In this document: positions 2,593-55,535 of the stretch, one piece after another
Layout: each line of letters begins with the position of its first letter
Position numbering within the stretch: the first letter of the stretch is position 1
NCBI GenBank assembly: GCA_016192425.1
Contig: JACPUE010000014.1
Coordinates: forward strand, 1 to 64,000
Length of the DNA: 64,000 nt
Reading direction: 5' to 3'
Source: Burkholderiales bacterium
GTDB lineage: Bacteria; Pseudomonadota; Gammaproteobacteria; Burkholderiales; Burkholderiaceae_C
Program-made: the position numbers and the translations under genes
Notes under the pieces: generated by a model
Seen by the model: the letters and a program-made list of their open reading frames with translations, nothing else
What the model was told of the DNA's origin: nothing
The model's database searches: none

Positions 2593-3336
2593 CTAAGGCT
2601 CCTCGCCAAAGCGATTCCACAGCGCGTCGGCAAACCAACGTGGCATTTTTTCGGATTTCGACTCCAGTTCCACCCCATCGGTAACCTCCCCCAGCCACAA
2701 ACGATCCTGGCTGGAGTTATCAAAGATGTAGGCCCGGTCCGTCTGGCGCACGGCCTGTGCCAGCAACCCCAGCGAGCGGTGGTAGCGCTCTACGATTTTC
2801 TCTTCCGGTACGGGATGTCCGCCCATGCGCACCCGGTGTTCCACACGCGAAATGTTGATGGCCGGATCCTCGGTGGCCACGTAGTACAGGTAGGTGCGAA
2901 ACCCGTGCTCCCTGGCCTTCTGGAGAAAAGCCACCTTGTCGGGCGAAGACATTACCGTTTCGAAAGTGAAGCTGGTACGGCTTTCCAGCAGCCTGTGCCG
3001 AATGAAATCGGACAGCACGGAAGCCCAGTAGGAATTGATGGGGACGCAGCCAAACACCAGTTGGTTGTCGGCAAAGCGCAGACCGTCGATCTGCTCCAGC
3101 AGTCCCTCCTTGCGCAGCAAGGGCGATTCACGCAGAAAGGACAGTACGGCGCCCGCATCGGTGTGCACCTGGTAGGCGGAAAAATCCAGCACTCCTTGCG
3201 CGCGCATGCTCTTTTCCATGTCATCGGGGTTGACATAGACCCCCAGCAGCGCAGGCGGCAGCACCTCTTTGAGAGTACTCTTTCCGGAGCCATTGGGCCC
3301 CGCAAACATGCGCATGCGCGGCGTGGCCACCTTCAA
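2593..3336 (-). CDS. zeta-toxin-like P-loop kinase
   Basis: 247 aa. A Walker A loop lies at the N-terminus (FAGPNGSGKSTL). Further on are an FETVMSS motif and an Arg-rich segment ending in RMGGHPVPEEKI, both typical of zeta-toxin-family proteins. Characterised zeta toxins phosphorylate UDP-N-acetylglucosamine and block cell-wall synthesis, but proteobacterial relatives are largely untested. The start overlaps the stop of a 77-aa gene (3333-3566) by four bases, as in toxin-antitoxin pairs. The pair is inverted relative to its neighbours and looks less GC-rich than they do by eye, which hints at acquisition. Family assignment is good; toxicity is inference. Confidence 0.85.
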   Translation of the reverse strand: MKVATPRMRMFAGPNGSGKSTLKEVLPPALLGVYVNPDDMEKSMRAQGVLDFSAYQVHTDAGAVLSFLRESPLLRKEGLLEQIDGLRFADNQLVFGCVPINSYWASVLSDFIRHRLLESRTSFTFETVMSSPDKVAFLQKAREHGFRTYLYYVATEDPAINISRVEHRVRMGGHPVPEEKIVERYHRSLGLLAQAVRQTDRAYIFDNSSQDRLWLGEVTDGVELESKSEKMPRWFADALWNRFGEEP

Positions 3337-3566
3337 CTGCGGGCGCGCCGCTTGCTGCCTGCAGGTACGGTGATGGGCTCGGGCAAGGCCTTGAGCACGC
3401 GGTGGCTCCCATCGGGGTGGGACTCGACCAACTGGCCGTCCAACACCTCCAGCACATAACTGCCATGGGCCATGGCGCGGACGTAGGCCTGCTTGAAGGC
3501 GCCACTGGCCAGATCTGGAATACGCTTTTCCAGCGCATCCATGGCTTGTTCGCTCAATCCATTCAT
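3333..3566 (-). CDS. small protein, putative partner (antitoxin) of the zeta-like toxin
   Basis: 77 aa from the ATG at 3566, chosen because a GGAG Shine-Dalgarno sits 6-7 bases upstream. The same frame could start 25 codons earlier at 3641, but that would run into the divergent plsC leader and has no clear ribosome site. The N-terminus (NGLSEQAMDALEKRIPDLAS) looks helical and the C-terminus is basic. It resembles no antitoxin family I can name with confidence. The four-base overlap with the toxin start indicates translational coupling and supports a pair. Antitoxin function is inferred from position only. Confidence 0.65.
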   Translation of the reverse strand: MNGLSEQAMDALEKRIPDLASGAFKQAYVRAMAHGSYVLEVLDGQLVESHPDGSHRVLKALPEPITVPAGSKRRARS

Positions 3567-3662
3567 TGCAAGCTCCACAGCAAGAGAGGTATCAGTTAAG
3601 TTTACTGCAGCCCCCCGGTGGCATGCCAGCAACAGGCCCATTGCCCCCTATCATCCCACCCC

Positions 3663-5458: not shown

Positions 5459-6007
5459 ATGAGAATCCTTGGCATTGACCCCGGCCTGCAGACCACCGGC
5501 TTTGGCGTGCTCGACGTGGAAGGCCACAAGCTGCGCTACGTGGCCAGCGGCACCATCCGCACCACCAAACTGTCCCTGGGCGACCTGCCCGGGCGCCTGA
5601 AGGTGCTGTTCGACGGCATTGGCGAAGTGGTGGCGCGCTACGAGCCCGACGTGGCCACGGTGGAGATCGTGTTCGTCAACGTCAACCCCCAGTCCACCCT
5701 GCTGCTGGGCCAGGCGCGCGGCGCCTGCCTGACCGCCCTGGTGGCGCGCGACCTGCCCGTGGCCGAATACACCGCGCTGCAAATGAAGAAGGCCGTGGTC
5801 GGCCATGGCCGCGCCGCCAAGTCCCAGGTGCAGGAGATGGTGCGCCGCCTGCTCGACCTGCCCGGCCTGCCCGGCACCGACGCCGCCGACGCCCTGGGCC
5901 TGGCCATCACCCACGCCCACGCAGGCGCAGCCATGGCCAAGGTGGCGCAGGTCACTGCCCTGCAGCGCCGCCAGCATGCGATGTACAAAGGCGGGCGCAG
6001 TTATTGA
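5459..6007 (+). CDS. ruvC: Holliday junction resolvase RuvC
   Basis: 182 aa. RuvC nicks Holliday junctions symmetrically with RuvAB during recombinational repair. Catalytic acidic residues are visible: Asp7 in MRILGIDPG, Glu69 in ATVEIVF, and the C-terminal pair Asp141/Asp144 in [11 protein letters not shown]. The Ser-Thr-Leu-Leu-Leu-Gly-Gln DNA-contact region is present. The ATG at 5459 has no Shine-Dalgarno because the leader consists entirely of a family 1 repeat. ruvA and ruvB are not adjacent in the window. A family 2 repeat starts directly after the stop. Confidence 0.96.
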
Positions 6008-6184
6008 GACACCCCCCTGAGGTGCTGCGCACCTTCCCCCCGCTCTCGCAGCGCTGCGCACTGCGGGCAGGGGGACGCTCCCGGCACACGCACGTGGAAA
6101 TACTGGCGGCCCTTGCGCGGGAGCCCTGGCCTGGGGCGCGCCGGTTTCATGCGTCCGGGATGCCACATTCGCGCAATGGATAAC
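6008..6184 (+). repeat. dispersed repeat family 2, copy A
   Basis: Starts immediately after the ruvC stop with ACACCCCCCTGAGG and contains the CGCTCTCGCAGCGCTGCGC hairpin block, then GGGAGCCCTGGCCTGGGGCG. It ends at ATGGATAAC. Copies B (9682) and C (16388) share the full length; copies D and E (on the minus strand near 52 kb and 55.4 kb) share the left and central parts. The remaining 77 bp before the next gene hold only its ribosome site (AGGAG). Confidence 0.8.
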
Positions 6185-6261
6185 CGATACGGTGAAGAAC
6201 GCCAACGGATTGCACGCAGGCGATTTAGACTGGGCACATTGCTTTTCCTTCAGGAGTTTTC

Positions 6262-7380
6262 ATGAGATCACTGCATGTGTTGGCTTGCGTGGGTATGGCA
6301 GCCGTGCTGTCCATGGGAGCTTCCGCCCAGGCCCAGATCAAGATCGGGCAGACTGCAGGCATCACAGGGCAGGCAGCGGCCGGCGTCAAAGAGATTACGG
6401 ACGGCGCCAAGCTGTATTTCGACGCCGTCAACGCCAAAGGCGGTGTGCACGGGCAGAAGATCGAACTGATTTCGCTGGACGACCAGTTCGACCCCAAGCT
6501 GGCCGCCGAAAATGCACGCAAGCTGATCGAGGAGCAGCAGGTGTCCGCCATGTTCCTGACGCGCGGAACACCGCACACCCAGGCCATCGTGCCGCTGCTG
6601 GACAAGCATGGCGTGCCCTTGGTGGCGCCCTCCACGGGTGCCATGGTCTTGCACCAGCCGGTTCTGAAGTACGTGTTCAACGTGCGTGCGCCCTACCAGG
6701 TCGAAGCAGAAAAAGCCATCAAACACCTCGCATCCATCGGCATGACGCGGATCGCCGCTCTGTATTCGGACGACAGCTTTGGTGCGGACGCCGTGGCTGG
6801 GGTTCACAAGGGCCTGGAGAATGCCAAGCTCACCCCGGTGGTACTCGAAAAGTTCGAGAGAGCCAAACCGGAGTTCACAGCCCTGGCCAGCAACATCGCC
6901 AAGGCGCAAGCACAAGCTGTGCTGGTCATCGCTTCGGCAGAAGCAGTCAACAAAGCCATCGACGCGCTGCGCAGCGCAGGCTCCAACGCGCAGGTGGTGA
7001 CCCTGTCGAACAACGCATCGGGCGGCTTCATCAAGAGCCTGGGCACCAAGGCCCACGGCGTGGTGGTCACCCAGGTGTTCCCTAACGAGCGCACGCTGAC
7101 TTTCGGGCTGGTCAAAGAGATGCTGGAACAGGCCAAGGCCCACAACACCCCGCAGGCCAGCCCCGCCATGCTGGAAGGCTTTGCCGGCGCCAAGGTGCTG
7201 GTCGAGGCGCTGCGGCGCGCTGGCCCCAAGCCCAGCCGCGACAAGATCCACGCCGCCCTGGAGGGCATGGGCAAGCTCGACCTGGGCGGGCTGGAACTGG
7301 GCTACAGCCCCACCGACCACACGGGGCTGGACTTCACGGACCTCTCCATCATCAGCAGCCAGGGCAACTTCCGGCGTTGA
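6262..7380 (+). CDS. periplasmic amino-acid/amide-type ABC transporter binding protein (LivK-like)
   Basis: 372 aa with a clear signal peptide (residues 1-24, Ala-Gln-Ala cleavage region). The Peripla_BP_6 fold opens with IKIGQTAGITGQAA and includes the YFDAVNAKGGVHGQ segment usual for branched-chain amino-acid/amide binding proteins. An AGGAG ribosome site lies 6-7 bases before the ATG. No permease or ATPase gene lies nearby, so it is an orphan; such orphans in Comamonadaceae often work with remote transporters or as sensors. It is 13 bp upstream of a small membrane protein gene and the radical SAM gene, so it may belong to their transcript. The ligand cannot be read from the sequence. Confidence 0.88.
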   Translation: MRSLHVLACVGMAAVLSMGASAQAQIKIGQTAGITGQAAAGVKEITDGAKLYFDAVNAKGGVHGQKIELISLDDQFDPKLAAENARKLIEEQQVSAMFLTRGTPHTQAIVPLLDKHGVPLVAPSTGAMVLHQPVLKYVFNVRAPYQVEAEKAIKHLASIGMTRIAALYSDDSFGADAVAGVHKGLENAKLTPVVLEKFERAKPEFTALASNIAKAQAQAVLVIASAEAVNKAIDALRSAGSNAQVVTLSNNASGGFIKSLGTKAHGVVVTQVFPNERTLTFGLVKEMLEQAKAHNTPQASPAMLEGFAGAKVLVEALRRAGPKPSRDKIHAALEGMGKLDLGGLELGYSPTDHTGLDFTDLSIISSQGNFRR

Positions 7381-7393
7381 AGGCGCAGTCTCC

Positions 7394-7852
7394 ATGGCCA
7401 CCCCCTTCGCCCAGTTCAAGTACCCGCACGGCGGCCGCCCCCTCATCGGCCCGGTGCGGCGCGGGGTGATTTATGGCGGTGCGGTGCTGGCACTGCTGGC
7501 CACGGTGCTGGCCTTCCCGATGGGCGCGGCGCTGTGGCTGGTGCCGCTGATGGCACGGCTGTCGGCGGCGCGCTACCTGCAGATCGGGCCACGCTACCTG
7601 CTGTGCGGCGACACCATTCTTTACTACGCCAACGTGCAGCGCATGGTGCTTGCACGTGCACAGGGGCGCCTGTCCTTGTACGGCACGGACAAGAACCAGC
7701 CGCTGGTCATCGAGCGCAGCGAGTTCCCCACCAACGCGCGCAAGCCCGACAAGATCGCCAAGAACAAAGACGCCAAGTTCGACAAGGTCTCCGCCCGCAT
7801 CATCGAGAGCGTGCTCAAGGCCGCACCCGGCACACGGCTGGAGGAGGCCTGA
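7394..7852 (+). CDS. small membrane protein next to a radical SAM gene
   Basis: 152 aa, not recognised as a known family. It has two adjoining hydrophobic segments (about residues 25-60: YGGAVLALLATVLAFPMG, then a further stretch). A hydrophilic, Lys-rich C-terminal half follows, which is probably cytoplasmic. It starts 13 bp after the binding-protein gene and stops 2 bp before the radical SAM start, so the three are almost certainly one transcript. It could anchor the enzyme or help export its product, but that is inference from position. No catalytic motif is evident. Confidence 0.7.
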   Translation: MATPFAQFKYPHGGRPLIGPVRRGVIYGGAVLALLATVLAFPMGAALWLVPLMARLSAARYLQIGPRYLLCGDTILYYANVQRMVLARAQGRLSLYGTDKNQPLVIERSEFPTNARKPDKIAKNKDAKFDKVSARIIESVLKAAPGTRLEEA

Positions 7853-7854
7853 GC

Positions 7855-9681
7855 ATGGACCGCGCAGCGCCCTCGGCACCCGCCTTCGAGCGCTCCATCC
7901 ACCTGCTCTATGTGCCCACGCTGTGCTGCAACCTGAGCTGCAGCTACTGCTACCTGGGCAAGCAGACCAGCGAGGCCGCGCTCAAGCGCGACGCGCAGCG
8001 CGCCGTGCATACGCTGCGCCACACGCTCGATGCGCTGCGCACGGCTGGTGTGCTGGCCTTCAACGTCTCGCTGCACGGCGGCGAGGTGACCACGCTGCCG
8101 CCCGAGGTGCTCGACACCCTGTTCGGCATGGTGCGCGCGCACTACCGCGCGCATTTCGATGCGCTGGGCGCCCTGGGGCACCGCAAGTCGGCGCCGCACA
8201 TCAAGACCAACCTGTTCAAGTTCGCGCCGCTCTACGAACTGTTCGACCGGCACAAGGTCTCCATCAGCGCCAGCATCGACCTGCCGCTGGCCCTGCACGA
8301 GCGCCACCGCACCACGCGCGGCGGCACCGGCTGGCTGCCGCGCACGCTGGAGAACATCCGCCTGCTGGCGCGCTACCCGCACGCCAAGAAAATTTCCGCC
8401 ACGCTCAGCAGCGAACACCTGCAGGACATGCAGGCGCTGGTGGACGACATCTGGTTCATCCACCGCGAGCTGGGCTTCGACATGAACCAGTTCAACCTGA
8501 TGTTCGCCTTCGGCTCCGAGCTCAACCGCGCGGCCAAGGGCGAGGCCGTGCTCACCCCCGCCACGCCCGAGCAGCAGCAGCGTCTGTACGACACGCTGCA
8601 CGCCGCCTTCCTGGGCACCGAATTGGAAGAGGGCCTGCGCCGCCACTGGTTCGACGAGTTCACCCCCGGCTACTGCACCAACGCCGCCAACTGCGGCGAG
8701 CGCTTCTACCTGCTGCAAAGCGACGGCTCGGTGTATTCGTGCGTGCGCGGCCAGGGCATCCCGGAGTTCCGCTACGGCAACGTGTTCGAGCAGCCCATCC
8801 TCGACATCCTGGACAACGGCGCGCGCAAAATCCGCGCGGTGCACCAGGCGCACGGCTTCGACAGCACCTGCCAGGGCTGCGGCCACCTCTCCACCTGCCA
8901 CACCGGCTGCCCGGTGGTGAAGCACCAGAACCACAGCGGTCGCTCCTACACCTGCGGCCTGCAAAAACGCATCTACGCCGACGCCCCGCTGACCTACCCC
9001 GCCGACCCGCCCGACGTGCAGCACGACTACGCGCAGCAGTACCAGCTGGCCACGCACCCCAGCCTGGCCTTCACGCAACCCGCGGCCCGGCCCGCCGCGC
9101 GCCGCCTGGTGCTGCCCAATGACCTGGGCGAAGAAAAGAACACCCTGCCCGCGCTCATCGAGGCCGACCCGGTACTGCAGGCGCTGTTCGATGGCAGCGC
9201 CTTCGTGCTCGAACTCAATGGCGAGGCCATCGCGCTCGATTCACAGTTGCTCAAACCGCAGCGCAGCGTGCACACCTTGGTGCCCGGCGACCGTGTCGTG
9301 CTGCACCTGCGCCGCGACCTGCTGGCGCACAACTGCCCCGAGGCCGTGCGCAACACCCTCTACCTGCAGATGCTGCGCGACACGCCCGTGGTCTACGGCG
9401 ACGAACAGCGCACCAAGCAGGCGCATGTGTTCACCTACCAGCTCTACGCGCAATTCCTGGAGCACAGCACACTGCTAGGCGAAGACTTCGCGCAGATGGA
9501 CCTCTCTGGCATCATCGACCTGCACCGCGCGCACTACCAGCGCGGCGTGCTCAACAACCTGTTCGTGACCACCTACTTTTTGCGCGAGTACCACTACCAG
9601 AAGCAGAAGGCCAACGCCTTCTACCATGTGCAGACGGCCAACCTGCCGTTCCAGAACTTCGAATTCCACTACCTAAAATGA
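7855..9681 (+). CDS. radical SAM/SPASM protein, probable peptide or protein modifier
   Basis: 608 aa. The radical SAM cluster motif CX3CX2C is Cys25-Cys29-Cys32 (CNLSCSYC), followed by SLHGGEVTT, the SAM-binding GGE motif. A SPASM-type region (about residues 275-370) has Cys in GYCTNAANCGERF, then DGSVYSC, CQGCGHLSTCHTGC and TCGLQKRIY. These would hold one or two auxiliary Fe-S clusters, as in anaerobic sulfatase maturases and RiPP maturases. The remaining roughly 230 residues, rich in aromatics, match nothing I recognise. The start at 7855 lies 2 bp after the membrane protein. No sulfatase is nearby; the next gene encodes a protein with a 27-Asn tail, which is the natural candidate substrate. 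Confidence 0.88.
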   Translation: MDRAAPSAPAFERSIHLLYVPTLCCNLSCSYCYLGKQTSEAALKRDAQRAVHTLRHTLDALRTAGVLAFNVSLHGGEVTTLPPEVLDTLFGMVRAHYRAHFDALGALGHRKSAPHIKTNLFKFAPLYELFDRHKVSISASIDLPLALHERHRTTRGGTGWLPRTLENIRLLARYPHAKKISATLSSEHLQDMQALVDDIWFIHRELGFDMNQFNLMFAFGSELNRAAKGEAVLTPATPEQQQRLYDTLHAAFLGTELEEGLRRHWFDEFTPGYCTNAANCGERFYLLQSDGSVYSCVRGQGIPEFRYGNVFEQPILDILDNGARKIRAVHQAHGFDSTCQGCGHLSTCHTGCPVVKHQNHSGRSYTCGLQKRIYADAPLTYPADPPDVQHDYAQQYQLATHPSLAFTQPAARPAARRLVLPNDLGEEKNTLPALIEADPVLQALFDGSAFVLELNGEAIALDSQLLKPQRSVHTLVPGDRVVLHLRRDLLAHNCPEAVRNTLYLQMLRDTPVVYGDEQRTKQAHVFTYQLYAQFLEHSTLLGEDFAQMDLSGIIDLHRAHYQRGVLNNLFVTTYFLREYHYQKQKANAFYHVQTANLPFQNFEFHYLK

Positions 9682-9845
9682 AACACCCCCCTGAGGCCCT
9701 GCGTGCCTTCCCCCCGCTCTCGCAGCGCTGCGCGCTGCGGGCAGGGAGACGCTCCCGGCGCGGCGGGGCGGCCCTTGCGCGGGAGCCCTGGCTTGGGCCG
9801 CGCCCGTTTCATGCGATGCGGGTGGCGCGCAGCGCCATGGATAAC
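9682..9845 (+). repeat. dispersed repeat family 2, copy B
   Basis: Starts directly after the radical SAM stop and spans the spacer to the poly-Asn gene. It carries the CGCTCTCGCAGCGCTGCGC block and the GGGAGCCCTGGCTTGGG block. It ends in ATG-GAT-AAC, followed by TGA, one base and the next gene's ATG. The hairpins could attenuate transcription from the upstream gene. Confidence 0.8.
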
Positions 9846-9849
9846 TGAC

Positions 9850-10323
9850 ATGAACACCAACGACCTGCAGCGCACCGCCTACACCGTGGAATGCTTTCTG
9901 AACGCCCTGCGGCTGGAGGATGGCCCGCCGCGCACGCAGCTGGAGGAAACGCTGGTGCGCTGGCTGGCCGACGGCGCGCGCGGCAAACAAGACCACCTCA
10001 TCTACCAGGAAGGCCGCATCCACTGCAACGCAGAAGGCAAGGCCCAGCAGACCTTCGACGTACCGCAGGCACGCCAGATCCAGACCCTGTGGTGCAACAG
10101 CGCCAAGCTCTCGGCCATCGACGGCGCGGCCTACAGCCGCAATGCCCAGCTGGTCATGCTGGGCACAGCCGGGTTGTTCCTGACCCTGCCCGGCCAGGCC
10201 GCCGCCAAGGACGCCAAGGACAAGGGCCGAAACAGCAATAACAACAACAATAACAACAATAACAACAATAACAACAATAACAACAATAACAACAACAATA
10301 ACAACAACAATAACAACGGATGA
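9850..10323 (+). CDS. small protein with a C-terminal run of 27 asparagines; candidate radical SAM substrate
   Basis: 157 aa, unrecognised. Residues 1-95 form a plausible small domain with three cysteines (15, 59, 82). Residues 99-119 are hydrophobic and end in GQAAAKDAKD, which looks like a membrane helix or a signal-peptidase-type Ala-x-Ala site. A short Lys/Asp linker follows, then 27 uninterrupted Asn codons (AAC/AAT) and a terminal Gly. The mixed leader-plus-repetitive-tail layout resembles RiPP precursors, and the radical SAM/SPASM gene is directly upstream. Other readings are that the tail is only a low-complexity product of a triplet microsatellite or a cell-surface linker. A three-codon mini-ORF ends one base before the start. 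Confidence 0.72.
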   Translation: MNTNDLQRTAYTVECFLNALRLEDGPPRTQLEETLVRWLADGARGKQDHLIYQEGRIHCNAEGKAQQTFDVPQARQIQTLWCNSAKLSAIDGAAYSRNAQLVMLGTAGLFLTLPGQAAAKDAKDKGRNSNNNNNNNNNNNNNNNNNNNNNNNNNNNG

Positions 10324-10362: not shown

Positions 10363-10812
10363 TCACTTGCGTACCGGCATCTCCAGCGTCACCGTGGTGG
10401 CGCCTTCCTGCCCAGCCCCCAGGCGGGCCTGGCGCGGGCCCAGCGATTGCAGCACCAGCCCGGCGTCCACCGTGGCGCCCACGCGGTAGGGTTTGGCGGG
10501 TTTGCCGTCCACGGCGATGAGTGCGGCGCCGCTGTCGCCCTGCTGGCCAGCCAGCACACCTACCAGCGCAAAGCGGCTGGAGACGGGCGGCGGCGCCTCC
10601 TGGGGCTCGGCCTGCGCCGCCACTGCGCCCAGCAGGCGGGCCATGGCCTGCACGTCGGTGGTGACGGGCGCAGAGGCAGTTGCGGGGGCGGGCATGCCGG
10701 GTGGGGGCGCCGTCAGGCGCAGGCCCCAGTAGGCCACGCTGGCAGCAGCCAGCGCCCAGACGGCCAGCGTGCCCAGGCGCACGCCCCAAGGTTGGTGAGA
10801 TCGGGTCTGCAT
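10363..10812 (-). CDS. gspC: type II secretion GspC-like protein
   Basis: 149 aa from the ATG at 10812; an in-frame ATG nine codons upstream at 10839 is less likely. It has one N-terminal membrane helix (LGTLAVWALAAASVAYWGLRL), a Pro/Ala-rich linker, and a homology-region-like domain (SSRFALVGVLAG, then AALIAVDGKPAKPYRVGATVDAGLVLQSL). GspC links the inner-membrane platform to the GspD secretin. It lacks the C-terminal PDZ domain of enterobacterial GspC, as in short betaproteobacterial forms. It is transcribed divergently from gspG across a 65-bp gap and convergently with the poly-Asn gene. In the classic operon gspC comes first on the same strand, so the inversion is unusual. Confidence 0.82.
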   Translation of the reverse strand: MQTRSHQPWGVRLGTLAVWALAAASVAYWGLRLTAPPPGMPAPATASAPVTTDVQAMARLLGAVAAQAEPQEAPPPVSSRFALVGVLAGQQGDSGAALIAVDGKPAKPYRVGATVDAGLVLQSLGPRQARLGAGQEGATTVTLEMPVRK

Positions 10813-10877
10813 CGCGCGATTATGATTCAGCCGATGCACGGGATGGCCCGTGGCCCTTCTTCAACCGCCTGCCGACC

Positions 10878-16387: not shown

Positions 16388-16569
16388 TGAAACACCCCCC
16401 TGTGTCGCCTTCGGCGCCTTCCCCCCGCTCTCGCAGCGCTGCGCACTGCGGGCAGGGGGACGCTCCCGGCGCCCGTACATGGGAATGCTGGCGGCCCTTG
16501 CACGGTGGCCCTGGCCTGGGGCGCGCCGGTTTCATGCGTCACGGGTGCCGCGTTCGCGGAATGGATAAC
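16388..16569 (+). repeat. dispersed repeat family 2, copy C
   Basis: Occupies the gspN-gspD spacer. It runs from ACACCCCCCTGTG through the CGCTCTCGCAGCGCTGCGC block and the GGCCCTGGCCTGGGGCGCGCC block to ATGGATAAC, followed by TAA, one base and the gspD ATG. It shares nearly its full length with copies A and B. Confidence 0.82.
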
Positions 16570-16573
16570 TAAT

Positions 16574-51981: not shown

Positions 51982-52128
51982 TACAGGTCCCGCAGTCGCC
52001 AAAACTGGCGCTCTCCAAACCAGGGCTCCCGCGCAAGGGCCGCCCCGCCGCGCTGGGAGCGTTCCCCTGCCCGCAGCGCGCAGCGCTGCGAGAGCGGGGG
52101 GAAGGCGCGCAGCGCCACAGGGGGGTGC
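51982..52128 (-). repeat. dispersed repeat family 2, copy D
   Basis: Read on the minus strand it starts about 4 bases after the recR stop with GCACCCCCCTGTGGCG, then the CGCTCTCGCAGCGCTGCGC block and GGGAGCCCTGGTTTGG. It has the same placement relative to the upstream gene as copies A-C. The right end is diverged and lacks ATGGATAAC. Confidence 0.75.
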
Positions 52129-55407: not shown

Positions 55408-55534
55408 TTGCAATACTGGCGCGCACCACGCGAGAGATGCCGCGCAAGGGCCGCCCCGCAGCGCTGGCATCGTCCCCCTTCCCGAATTGCGCAGCAATTC
55501 GAGAGAAGGGGGAAACGGCGCAGCCGTTCAGGGG
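55408..55534 (-). repeat. dispersed repeat family 2, copy E
   Basis: On the minus strand it runs from CCCCCTGAACGGCTGCGCC, through the TCTCGAATTGCTGCGCAATTC hairpin and GGGGCGGCCCTTGCGCGGC, to GTGCGCGCCAGTATT, with moderate divergence from copies A-D. It lies between the divergent dnaX and 4.5S RNA genes, and its left end abuts the RNA promoter. Confidence 0.65.
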
Positions 55535-55535
55535 G

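Follow-up and report, generated by a model that had tools for sequence, protein, structure and literature searches.

An unnamed radical SAM/SPASM enzyme subfamily found beside proteins with C-terminal asparagine runs in Comamonadaceae and Campylobacter phages: a putative maturase of asparagine-ended proteins

The window analyzed here comprises 64,000 nucleotides of a Burkholderiales bacterium (assembly GCA_016192425.1, contig JACPUE010000014.1, positions 1 to 64,000). It contains a block of four open reading frames (ORFs) coding for a periplasmic binding protein, a small membrane protein, a radical S-adenosylmethionine (SAM) enzyme with a SPASM region, and a small asparagine-tailed protein (Table 1). 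The original prediction, made from the sequence alone, read the entire block as one cassette in which the enzyme modifies the Asn tail. The layout it described is confirmed by the window ORFs: the coordinates and the 27-Asn tail are as given, the enzyme gene starts 2 bp after the end of the membrane-protein gene, and the gene for the Asn-tailed protein starts 168 bp past the enzyme stop codon.

Conservation and distribution of the three-gene locus

The Asn-tailed protein is composed of a conserved N-terminal domain, a hydrophobic stretch (approximately residues 99–119), a basic, Ser-containing linker, the 27 Asn residues and a final Gly. Using its N-terminal part we scanned one genome per species and identified seven other loci (L002–L008), assigned by record titles to Acidovorax, Giesbergeria (two loci), Simplicispira, Rhodoferax, Burkholderiaceae and Burkholderiales. 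The membrane protein, the enzyme and the tail protein are encoded in the same order at all eight Comamonadaceae loci. The binding protein, which had been counted as a cassette member, was not detected by tblastn (E 1e-5) at any of the seven other loci and was rejected as a part of the system on this ground. Among the eight loci, a binding-protein gene lies between ruvC and the trio only in the window genome.

An Asn run is present in all eight tail proteins (139–183 residues long), as anticipated for homologs of the small protein. The run comprises 27 residues in the window and 17, 13, 18, 10, 12, 9 and 14 residues in L002–L008, respectively. Runs were delimited as unbroken Asn, and in seven proteins nothing else stands between the preceding Ser and the Gly-stop; Ser precedes the run in 8/8 proteins, while Gly-stop follows it in 7/8. 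The eight runs are encoded by 87 AAC and 33 AAT codons. Downstream of the hydrophobic stretch, seven of the eight tails contain no aromatic residue. The Ala-Ala-Ala said to terminate the hydrophobic helix precedes the tail only in the window protein (1/8). A search for relatives of the tail protein among solved structures returned 13 matches with E-values between 0.2 and 0.9; the majority fall on the Asn-rich linker present in constructs of maltose-binding protein.

The enzyme and the tail are also distributed together. Within the genus, the enzyme is present in 6 of 26 genomes, including that of the window, and a run of eight AAY codons (AAC or AAT) occurs in exactly these six, a few hundred bases downstream of the enzyme gene; no such run was found in the 20 enzyme-free genus genomes or elsewhere in the six positive ones. 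Fifteen of the 26 genomes are of good quality, and four of those 15 are positive for the AAY run. The reversed-pattern control for these runs was uninformative, as a run matches in both readings and the counts are identical. In a family-wide scan of 299 genomes, the tail protein and the enzyme each turned up in two genomes, which are identical for both and include that of the window. Neither the enzyme without the tail protein nor the reverse was found among the family and genus genomes scanned. Among 398 genomes of the phylum, a profile of the enzyme C-terminal domain matched that of the window and no other; it also matched all six genomes of the related loci (L006 lies outside this sample). 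The trio is a rare, accessory system in these bacteria.

The third member of the trio, the membrane protein, has a strongly hydrophobic stretch (approximately residues 25–50) followed by a soluble C-terminal part, as judged by hydropathy; searches of NCBIfam, Pfam and PHROGs gave no family match above the cut-off.

The ruvC gene precedes the trio at six loci (window, L002–L005 and L007). RuvC was not found in the available DNA of L006 and L008, where the neighbors differ. The trio has thus stayed intact in different genomic settings. In L003–L007 (five loci) the stop codon of the enzyme gene and the start codon of the tail-protein gene overlap as ATGA, and in L008 the two genes are 28 bp apart. 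The 168-bp gap of the original prediction is correct for the window, but it is shared only with L002 (97% identity between the two gaps) and is itself an interspersed repeat of approximately 120–180 bp. Further copies, 75–91% identical, lie at positions 6009–6187, 16391–16570, 52002–52127 and 55415–55535, which makes five copies in the window; the exact core of the repeat occurs four times, with 0.02 occurrences expected.

Elsewhere in the window, positions 2593–3336 (minus strand) code for a zeta-toxin-like ATP-binding protein (GPNGSGKST), accompanied by a small upstream partner (3333–3641, minus strand). Judged by eye, the pair looks like a toxin-antitoxin module.

Table 1. Features of the locus and its immediate neighbors (window coordinates).
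Feature	Position	Strand	Remark
ruvC	5459–6007		RuvC domain match; upstream neighbor of the four-ORF block
Periplasmic binding protein gene	6262–7380	+	Peripla_BP_6; outside the system, present at 1/8 loci (window)
Small membrane protein, 152 residues	7394–7852	+	Conserved trio member
Radical SAM/SPASM enzyme, 608 residues, with extra C-terminal domain	7855–9681	+	Unnamed subfamily; phrog_1802 in PHROGs
CxxxCxxC radical SAM cluster motif (Cys25, Cys29 and Cys32 of the enzyme)	7927–7950	+	Invariant in 15/15 aligned sequences
SPASM region, 8 invariant Cys (274, 280, 296, 339, 342, 348, 352, 367)	8674–8955	+	Sequence-based; model poor here
Enzyme C-terminal domain (approximately residues 430–608), end motif YHYxK..NAFYHxQ..NLPF..EF	9142–9678	+	
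Interspersed repeat between the enzyme and Asn-tail genes	9682–9849	+	Not part of the system
Asn-tailed protein, 157 residues	9850–10323	+	Presumed substrate
Run of 27 Asn codons (19 AAC, 8 AAT)	10237–10317	+	Final Gly after the run
Gene with a type II secretion C domain	10363–10839	minus	Downstream neighbor of the block

Family, cluster motifs and structure of the enzyme

The enzyme contains the motifs of radical SAM/SPASM proteins (CxxxCxxC followed by CX9-15GX4C...CX2CX5CX3C...C). The phage family phrog_1802 of PHROGs, which has no more specific name than ‘radical SAM domain-containing protein’, matches almost the full length (residues 20–605) with an E-value of 2.9e-43. Among general domain models, the Pfam SPASM model PF13186 scores 24 bits against a cut-off of 21.5 for the window enzyme, and the SPASM model TIGR04085 (43 versus 27 bits) is the only one above its cut-off among the 25 of 45 NCBIfam matches listed. 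The Pfam Radical_SAM model gives 20.7 bits for the window enzyme, below the cut-off of 29.5, and 45.6 bits, above it, for a phage relative described in the next section. We delineated the subfamily by full-length homology that includes the C-terminal domain together with a neighbor ending in an Asn run, both of which we find here. By these features the enzyme represents an unnamed subfamily of phrog_1802 type, with a C-terminal domain of its own and an Asn-ended partner.

An alignment of 15 enzymes (eight from Comamonadaceae and seven from phages) contains exactly 11 invariant Cys residues, three in the CxxxCxxC motif and eight in auxiliary-cluster positions. Cys25/29/32, 280-G291-296, 339/342/348/352 and 367 are conserved in 15/15 sequences. 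In the alignment, the eight auxiliary Cys have the same order and nearly the same spacing as the ligands of anSMEcpe, an anaerobic sulfatase-maturating enzyme (anSME); as far as the excerpts of PMC5715301 go, these are Cys255, 261, 276 and 330 for one cluster and Cys317, 320, 326 and 348 for the other. Three clusters are predicted, both auxiliary ones being fully ligated. No further Cys is invariant in the 15 enzymes; the lineage-specific Cys24 and Cys494 occur in 8/15 sequences each.

In a fold search with the full-length AlphaFold model as a query, the enzyme core was closest to ChlB and anSMEcpe (Z 17–18, root-mean-square deviation of approximately 4 over approximately 300 residues). The matches span mainly residues 11–378 and include EpeE, a radical SAM epimerase (Z 11–12). 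The C-terminal domain is modeled with per-residue confidence (pLDDT) of 68–89 in 14 of 18 ten-residue blocks and of 53–61 in the other four; this domain has no match to PDB sequences up to an E-value of 1.

Among characterized enzymes, anSME (TIGR03942), which modifies a whole protein, shares the radical SAM and SPASM core and the order of the eight auxiliary-cluster Cys. It is the best PDB match by both sequence profile and Foldseek and comes close behind ChlB by Z-score. anSME differs from the enzymes described here in several respects. The window and phage enzymes score only 69 and 82 bits, respectively, against a TIGR03942 cut-off of 349, and carry an extra C-terminal domain next to an Asn-ended partner. 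The Asp in the GSVYPCD motif of anSMEcpe, next to the third auxiliary-cluster Cys, is a catalytic base; at this position Val is present in 8/15 and His in 7/15 of our enzymes, so that Asp is replaced in all 15.

A resemblance is also seen to radical SAM maturases of ribosomally synthesized and post-translationally modified peptides (RiPPs), such as DynA, GrrM/OscB, AmcB, PapB, HxsB and others: the core is related, and the enzyme gene lies beside that of a small partner whose C-terminus is of low complexity. In contrast, the partner here is a protein of 139–183 residues or a phage tail fiber, and apart from the general SPASM domain model all of the listed NCBIfam models fall below their cut-offs. 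The His-Xaa-Ser maturase HxsB (TIGR03978) scores 48 bits for the window and 43 bits for the phage enzyme against 370, and the GrrM/OscB, XyeB, FxsB, YhhB and AmcB models score 60, 28, 34, 50 and 61 bits against 310, 450, 370, 445 and 425, respectively. These five are cyclophane-forming maturases, whose core cross-link motif is an aromatic residue followed by X-X; seven of the eight bacterial tails have no such residue, and the phage fibers have aromatic residues shortly ahead of the Asn run or at the last position. RiPP pathways generally cut a precursor into leader and core and include a peptidase or exporter; within the trio, NCBIfam and Pfam gave no peptidase or transporter match. A role in defense was considered and rejected, as the only PADLOC match, to viperin, is weak (E 0.0014) and confined to a portion of the shared core.

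Related enzymes behind Campylobacter phage tail fibers

Relatives of the enzyme with the C-terminal domain are encoded by Campylobacter phage CAM-P21 and by a Campylobacter coli plasmid record bearing such a prophage (32% identity, 97% coverage). The phage gene order is a tail-fiber gene, a gene for a 211-residue protein and, directly behind it, the enzyme gene; in both CAM-P21 and the C. coli record the next genes code for a DUF1353 protein, another fiber-like protein and the tail sheath. The CAM-P21 fiber ends in ...STNNNNY. Two or more Asn are present within the last five residues of the fiber in all 14 enzyme-bearing phage records (L013–L024, L031 and L034; L025–L030, L032 and L033 duplicate contigs of this set, and L016 has only the fiber end on its contig). 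Nine fibers end in NNNNY, three in GNNF (L022, L024 and L034), one in GNNS (L023) and one in CNNNNN (L031). Aromatic residues in these fibers stand a few residues ahead of the Asn run or at the final position. Across the bacterial tails and phage fibers, the residue preceding every run of four or more Asn is Ser, Thr or Cys.

A scan of IMG/VR with the window protein gave no match, while scans with the phage protein, the alignment and the C-terminal motif recovered Campylobacter-type phages only, 12 contigs by the C-terminal motif. In a separate search, full-length homologs of the 211-residue protein were found on 12 IMG/VR contigs, the same 12 that have the enzyme motif. Other phage and plasmid matches (approximately 21–28% identity) end by residue 429 in the rows listed, which for one of the searches cover 10 of 40 records, and were not counted. 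According to excerpts of PMC2853527, PMC3322345 and PMC12398825, group II (T4-like) Campylobacter phages carry radical SAM genes tied to metabolism or DNA methylation and not to tail fibers. Such genes were not among our enzyme-search matches, the presence of those phages in the searched collection being unchecked.

As a control, we collected 30 loci by the fiber N-terminal domain, regardless of the enzyme. An Asn-run fiber end is found in 8/8 enzyme-bearing and in 0/20 enzyme-free loci, the remaining two fibers running off the contig; one of the 20 enzyme-free fibers ends in a single Asn. If related loci are treated as independent, the naive exact probability of such a partition is 3e-7. Of the 242 phage-locus ORFs of at least 80 residues that are distinct in the last 30 residues (a set that includes spurious ORFs), 12 have two consecutive Asn within the last five, and 10 of the 12 are these fibers. 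A DNA search of IMG/VR for [STPA]NNNNY-TAA returned 64 stretches, seven of which form the end of a stop-to-stop open frame with 100 residues or more; six of the seven are enzyme-bearing fibers, and the pattern skips L021 on account of its Ser codon. Three loci from this search (L113, L139 and L145) have a weak match to the enzyme profile (21 bits) and none to the C-terminal domain.

The knobs to which the Asn ends belong are diverse. The CAM-P21 type is approximately 30% identical to the L020/L021 type; over the last 100 residues, its matches to the GNNF/GNNS types do not go below an E-value of 0.06, and L031 gives no match. Since the fiber ends differ in both sequence and Asn codons, inheritance of a single DNA end does not by itself account for the Asn run. 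At a finer scale, a patch of approximately 20 bases near the 3′ end of the fiber gene (knob) varies among the otherwise near-identical phages L013–L019. A diversity-generating retroelement was considered as its source; the changes are not confined to A positions.

The gene that normally follows the fiber is different. In the five enzyme-free phages with listed ORFs, a protein of 166–170 residues is encoded behind the fiber, and the one scanned (L047) is a DUF4376 domain protein; neither the 211-residue protein nor the enzyme has a match in the eight enzyme-free loci tested. For such H-fibers of CJIE1 prophages, binding to the major outer membrane protein has been reported, as have co-purification of the DUF4376 protein with the fiber and, for one of two fibers, a need for that protein for activity (excerpts of PMC11464564 and PMC7882524). 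In the loci compared here, the Tfa/DUF4376 chaperone module of Mu-like phages, the one studied in the CJIE1 H-fibers, occupies the same place behind the receptor-binding fiber gene and is exchanged together with the knob, whereas in the enzyme-bearing phages that place is taken by the 211-residue protein and the radical SAM enzyme. Neither paper uses the word ‘radical’. The 211-residue protein and the enzyme thus replace the usual fiber chaperone as a cassette. That knob, chaperone and enzyme switch together is expected if the enzyme works on the end of the knob.

No homology was detected between the 211-residue protein and either the tail protein or the membrane protein. Its last 70 or so residues have distant relatives at four IMG/VR loci (L164–L167), behind genes judged fiber-like by eye, and are also matched in two named phages. 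L164–L167 have no enzyme, nor does that gene end in an Asn run. This suggests that the C-terminal part is a wider fiber-associated domain.

Proposed function and alternatives

Three observations stand out: the linkage of the genes is conserved, the enzyme and a C-terminal Asn run strictly co-occur in two unrelated contexts, and the cluster motifs are intact. Taken together, they point to the trio being a protein-maturation system whose enzyme would act as a maturase of C-terminal Asn runs, including those at phage receptor-binding tips; we assign this reading a probability of about 0.7. The central claim of the original prediction, that the enzyme acts on the Asn tail, thereby gains strong genetic support, as judged by co-occurrence in 2/299 family and 6/26 genus genomes and by a phage branch that also lies beside Asn-ended proteins. 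Its expectation that the enzyme and the small protein always go together holds in Comamonadaceae but not in phages, where the enzyme stands beside another Asn-ended protein.

According to the model, the enzyme would recognize its partner and modify the C-terminal Asn run by radical chemistry, with recognition probably handled by the subfamily-specific C-terminal domain of the enzyme and the globular part of the partner. In Comamonadaceae the partner would be small and dedicated, its N-terminal domain docking and its Asn tail serving as the substrate. The membrane protein might anchor, place or present the product at the inner membrane, a membrane role of the product being a guess from the presence of that protein. 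In the Mu-like phages of Campylobacter the enzyme would modify the receptor-binding tail fiber at its C-terminal tip, and the 211-residue fiber-associated protein may help the fiber in place of the usual DUF4376 chaperone. The weakest step is the chemistry, for which we tentatively propose a net oxidation or a cross-link at Asn carbons. It is preferred because both auxiliary clusters are predicted to have a full set of ligands, like those of anSMEcpe, and because no invariant Cys is left over as an H-atom donor. The most far-reaching proposal, for which we see roughly balanced odds, is that a radical SAM enzyme modifies the receptor-binding tip of a phage, that the knob, the fiber-associated protein and the enzyme are swapped as a cassette, and that a chromosomal, membrane-linked bacterial trio uses the same Asn-tail chemistry.

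A number of points weigh against this interpretation. Its support is entirely comparative, and it is from such comparisons that we infer modification of the Asn run. Four of the 14 phage records have just two Asn (GNNF in L022, L024 and L034; GNNS in L023), so that a common Asn rule draws most of its support from the NNNNY and CNNNNN types. L023 and L034/L059 have a broken enzyme frame, and the fibers there still end in GNNS (in place of GNNF) and GNNF, respectively. The phage loci are related, and hence their counts are not independent. Two of the 20 enzyme-free control loci (L050 and L053) have less than 0.9 kb of sequence behind the fiber, so that the enzyme is not excludable there; without them the count becomes 0/18. 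The Asn run of L003 is trailed by 42 other residues in place of the Gly-stop. The 211-residue protein is unlike the tail and membrane proteins of the trio, and no similarity is seen between the two kinds of substrate. The structural model of the tail protein is poor (mean pLDDT 51.9) and that of the enzyme is modest (mean pLDDT 64.7), falling to approximately 30 across residues 341–420. As this very poor segment covers part of the SPASM region, the cluster assignment relies on sequence.

An explanation we regard as unlikely treats the Asn run as a docking or spacer tag, with the enzyme modifying the preceding Ser, Thr or Cys, the terminal Tyr or Phe, or the globular domain. The Ser, Thr or Cys that stands directly ahead of every run of four or more Asn is in line with this, as are the phage ends with only two Asn; a precedent is MftC, which modifies the C-terminal Tyr in mycofactocin. 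Yet a terminal aromatic residue is missing from the Comamonadaceae proteins (Gly in 7/8), from L023 (Ser) and from L031 (Asn), and the residue type common to all these C-termini is Asn.

If the target is Asn itself, it might be epimerized to D-Asn in the fashion of polytheonamide-type proteusins, in which an Asn-containing region is modified by radical SAM enzymes. We consider this quite unlikely, even though the targets here are Asn-rich and EpeE is among the structural matches; its Z-score of 11–12, compared with 17–18 for ChlB and anSMEcpe, is what the shared core fold gives anyway. In the YydG epimerase an active-site Cys is the H-atom donor, and the same has been suggested for proteusin enzymes, whose radical SAM modification is described in general terms (excerpts of PMC5682303). 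All 11 invariant Cys of our enzymes fit the radical SAM cluster (three) and two fully ligated auxiliary clusters (eight), leaving none for such a donor, although Cys24 or Cys494, each in 8/15 sequences, might serve. Moreover, the trio differs from proteusin systems in having no methyltransferase match and no recognized leader family, and the listed NCBIfam matches include no proteusin model. The analogy to polytheonamide-type epimerization and N-methylation drawn in the original prediction is therefore weak, as the trio has no methyltransferase match and no invariant Cys that is not assignable to a cluster.

The Asn ends might also carry no function at all, the phage fiber end simply riding on the enzyme haplotype and the Comamonadaceae tail being an Asn-coding microsatellite. 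The relatedness of the phage loci, the known expansion of trinucleotide runs by slippage and the range of run lengths from 9 to 27 would all suit this view, which we nonetheless judge very unlikely. The Asn end persists across several knob types with different codons, and AAC and AAT are mixed in the bacterial runs with no other codon interrupting them (though the runs were delimited by that very rule). No run of eight AAY codons exists in the 20 enzyme-free genus genomes or in the rest of the six positive ones, and two unrelated lineages have the same residue at the same end.

Maturation of C-terminal Asn runs is thus the reading we favor. In kind it is familiar, that of a radical SAM/SPASM maturase with a neighboring substrate; what is new is the subfamily, the Asn-run rule and the apparent use on phage receptor-binding fibers. 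The trio is unnamed in the family libraries searched (NCBIfam, Pfam, PHROGs and PADLOC), and neither an Asn-tail radical SAM system nor radical SAM modification of tail fibers appears in open-access titles and abstract beginnings among the matches listed, in agreement with the initial impression that no described system corresponds to this gene set.

Most known substrates of radical SAM/SPASM maturases are small peptides or sulfatases, along with a few other enzymes. If our interpretation is correct, a subfamily that marks the C-termini of phage receptor-binding fibers would add a new layer to phage-host recognition, and a modified Asn end would represent a new means of building or diversifying host-binding surfaces. 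Fibers expressed without their enzyme may then be incomplete. The Asn-run rule provides a ready substrate prediction for an unstudied group of enzymes, and because the tail consists of one residue type, mass spectrometry should reveal the chemistry readily.

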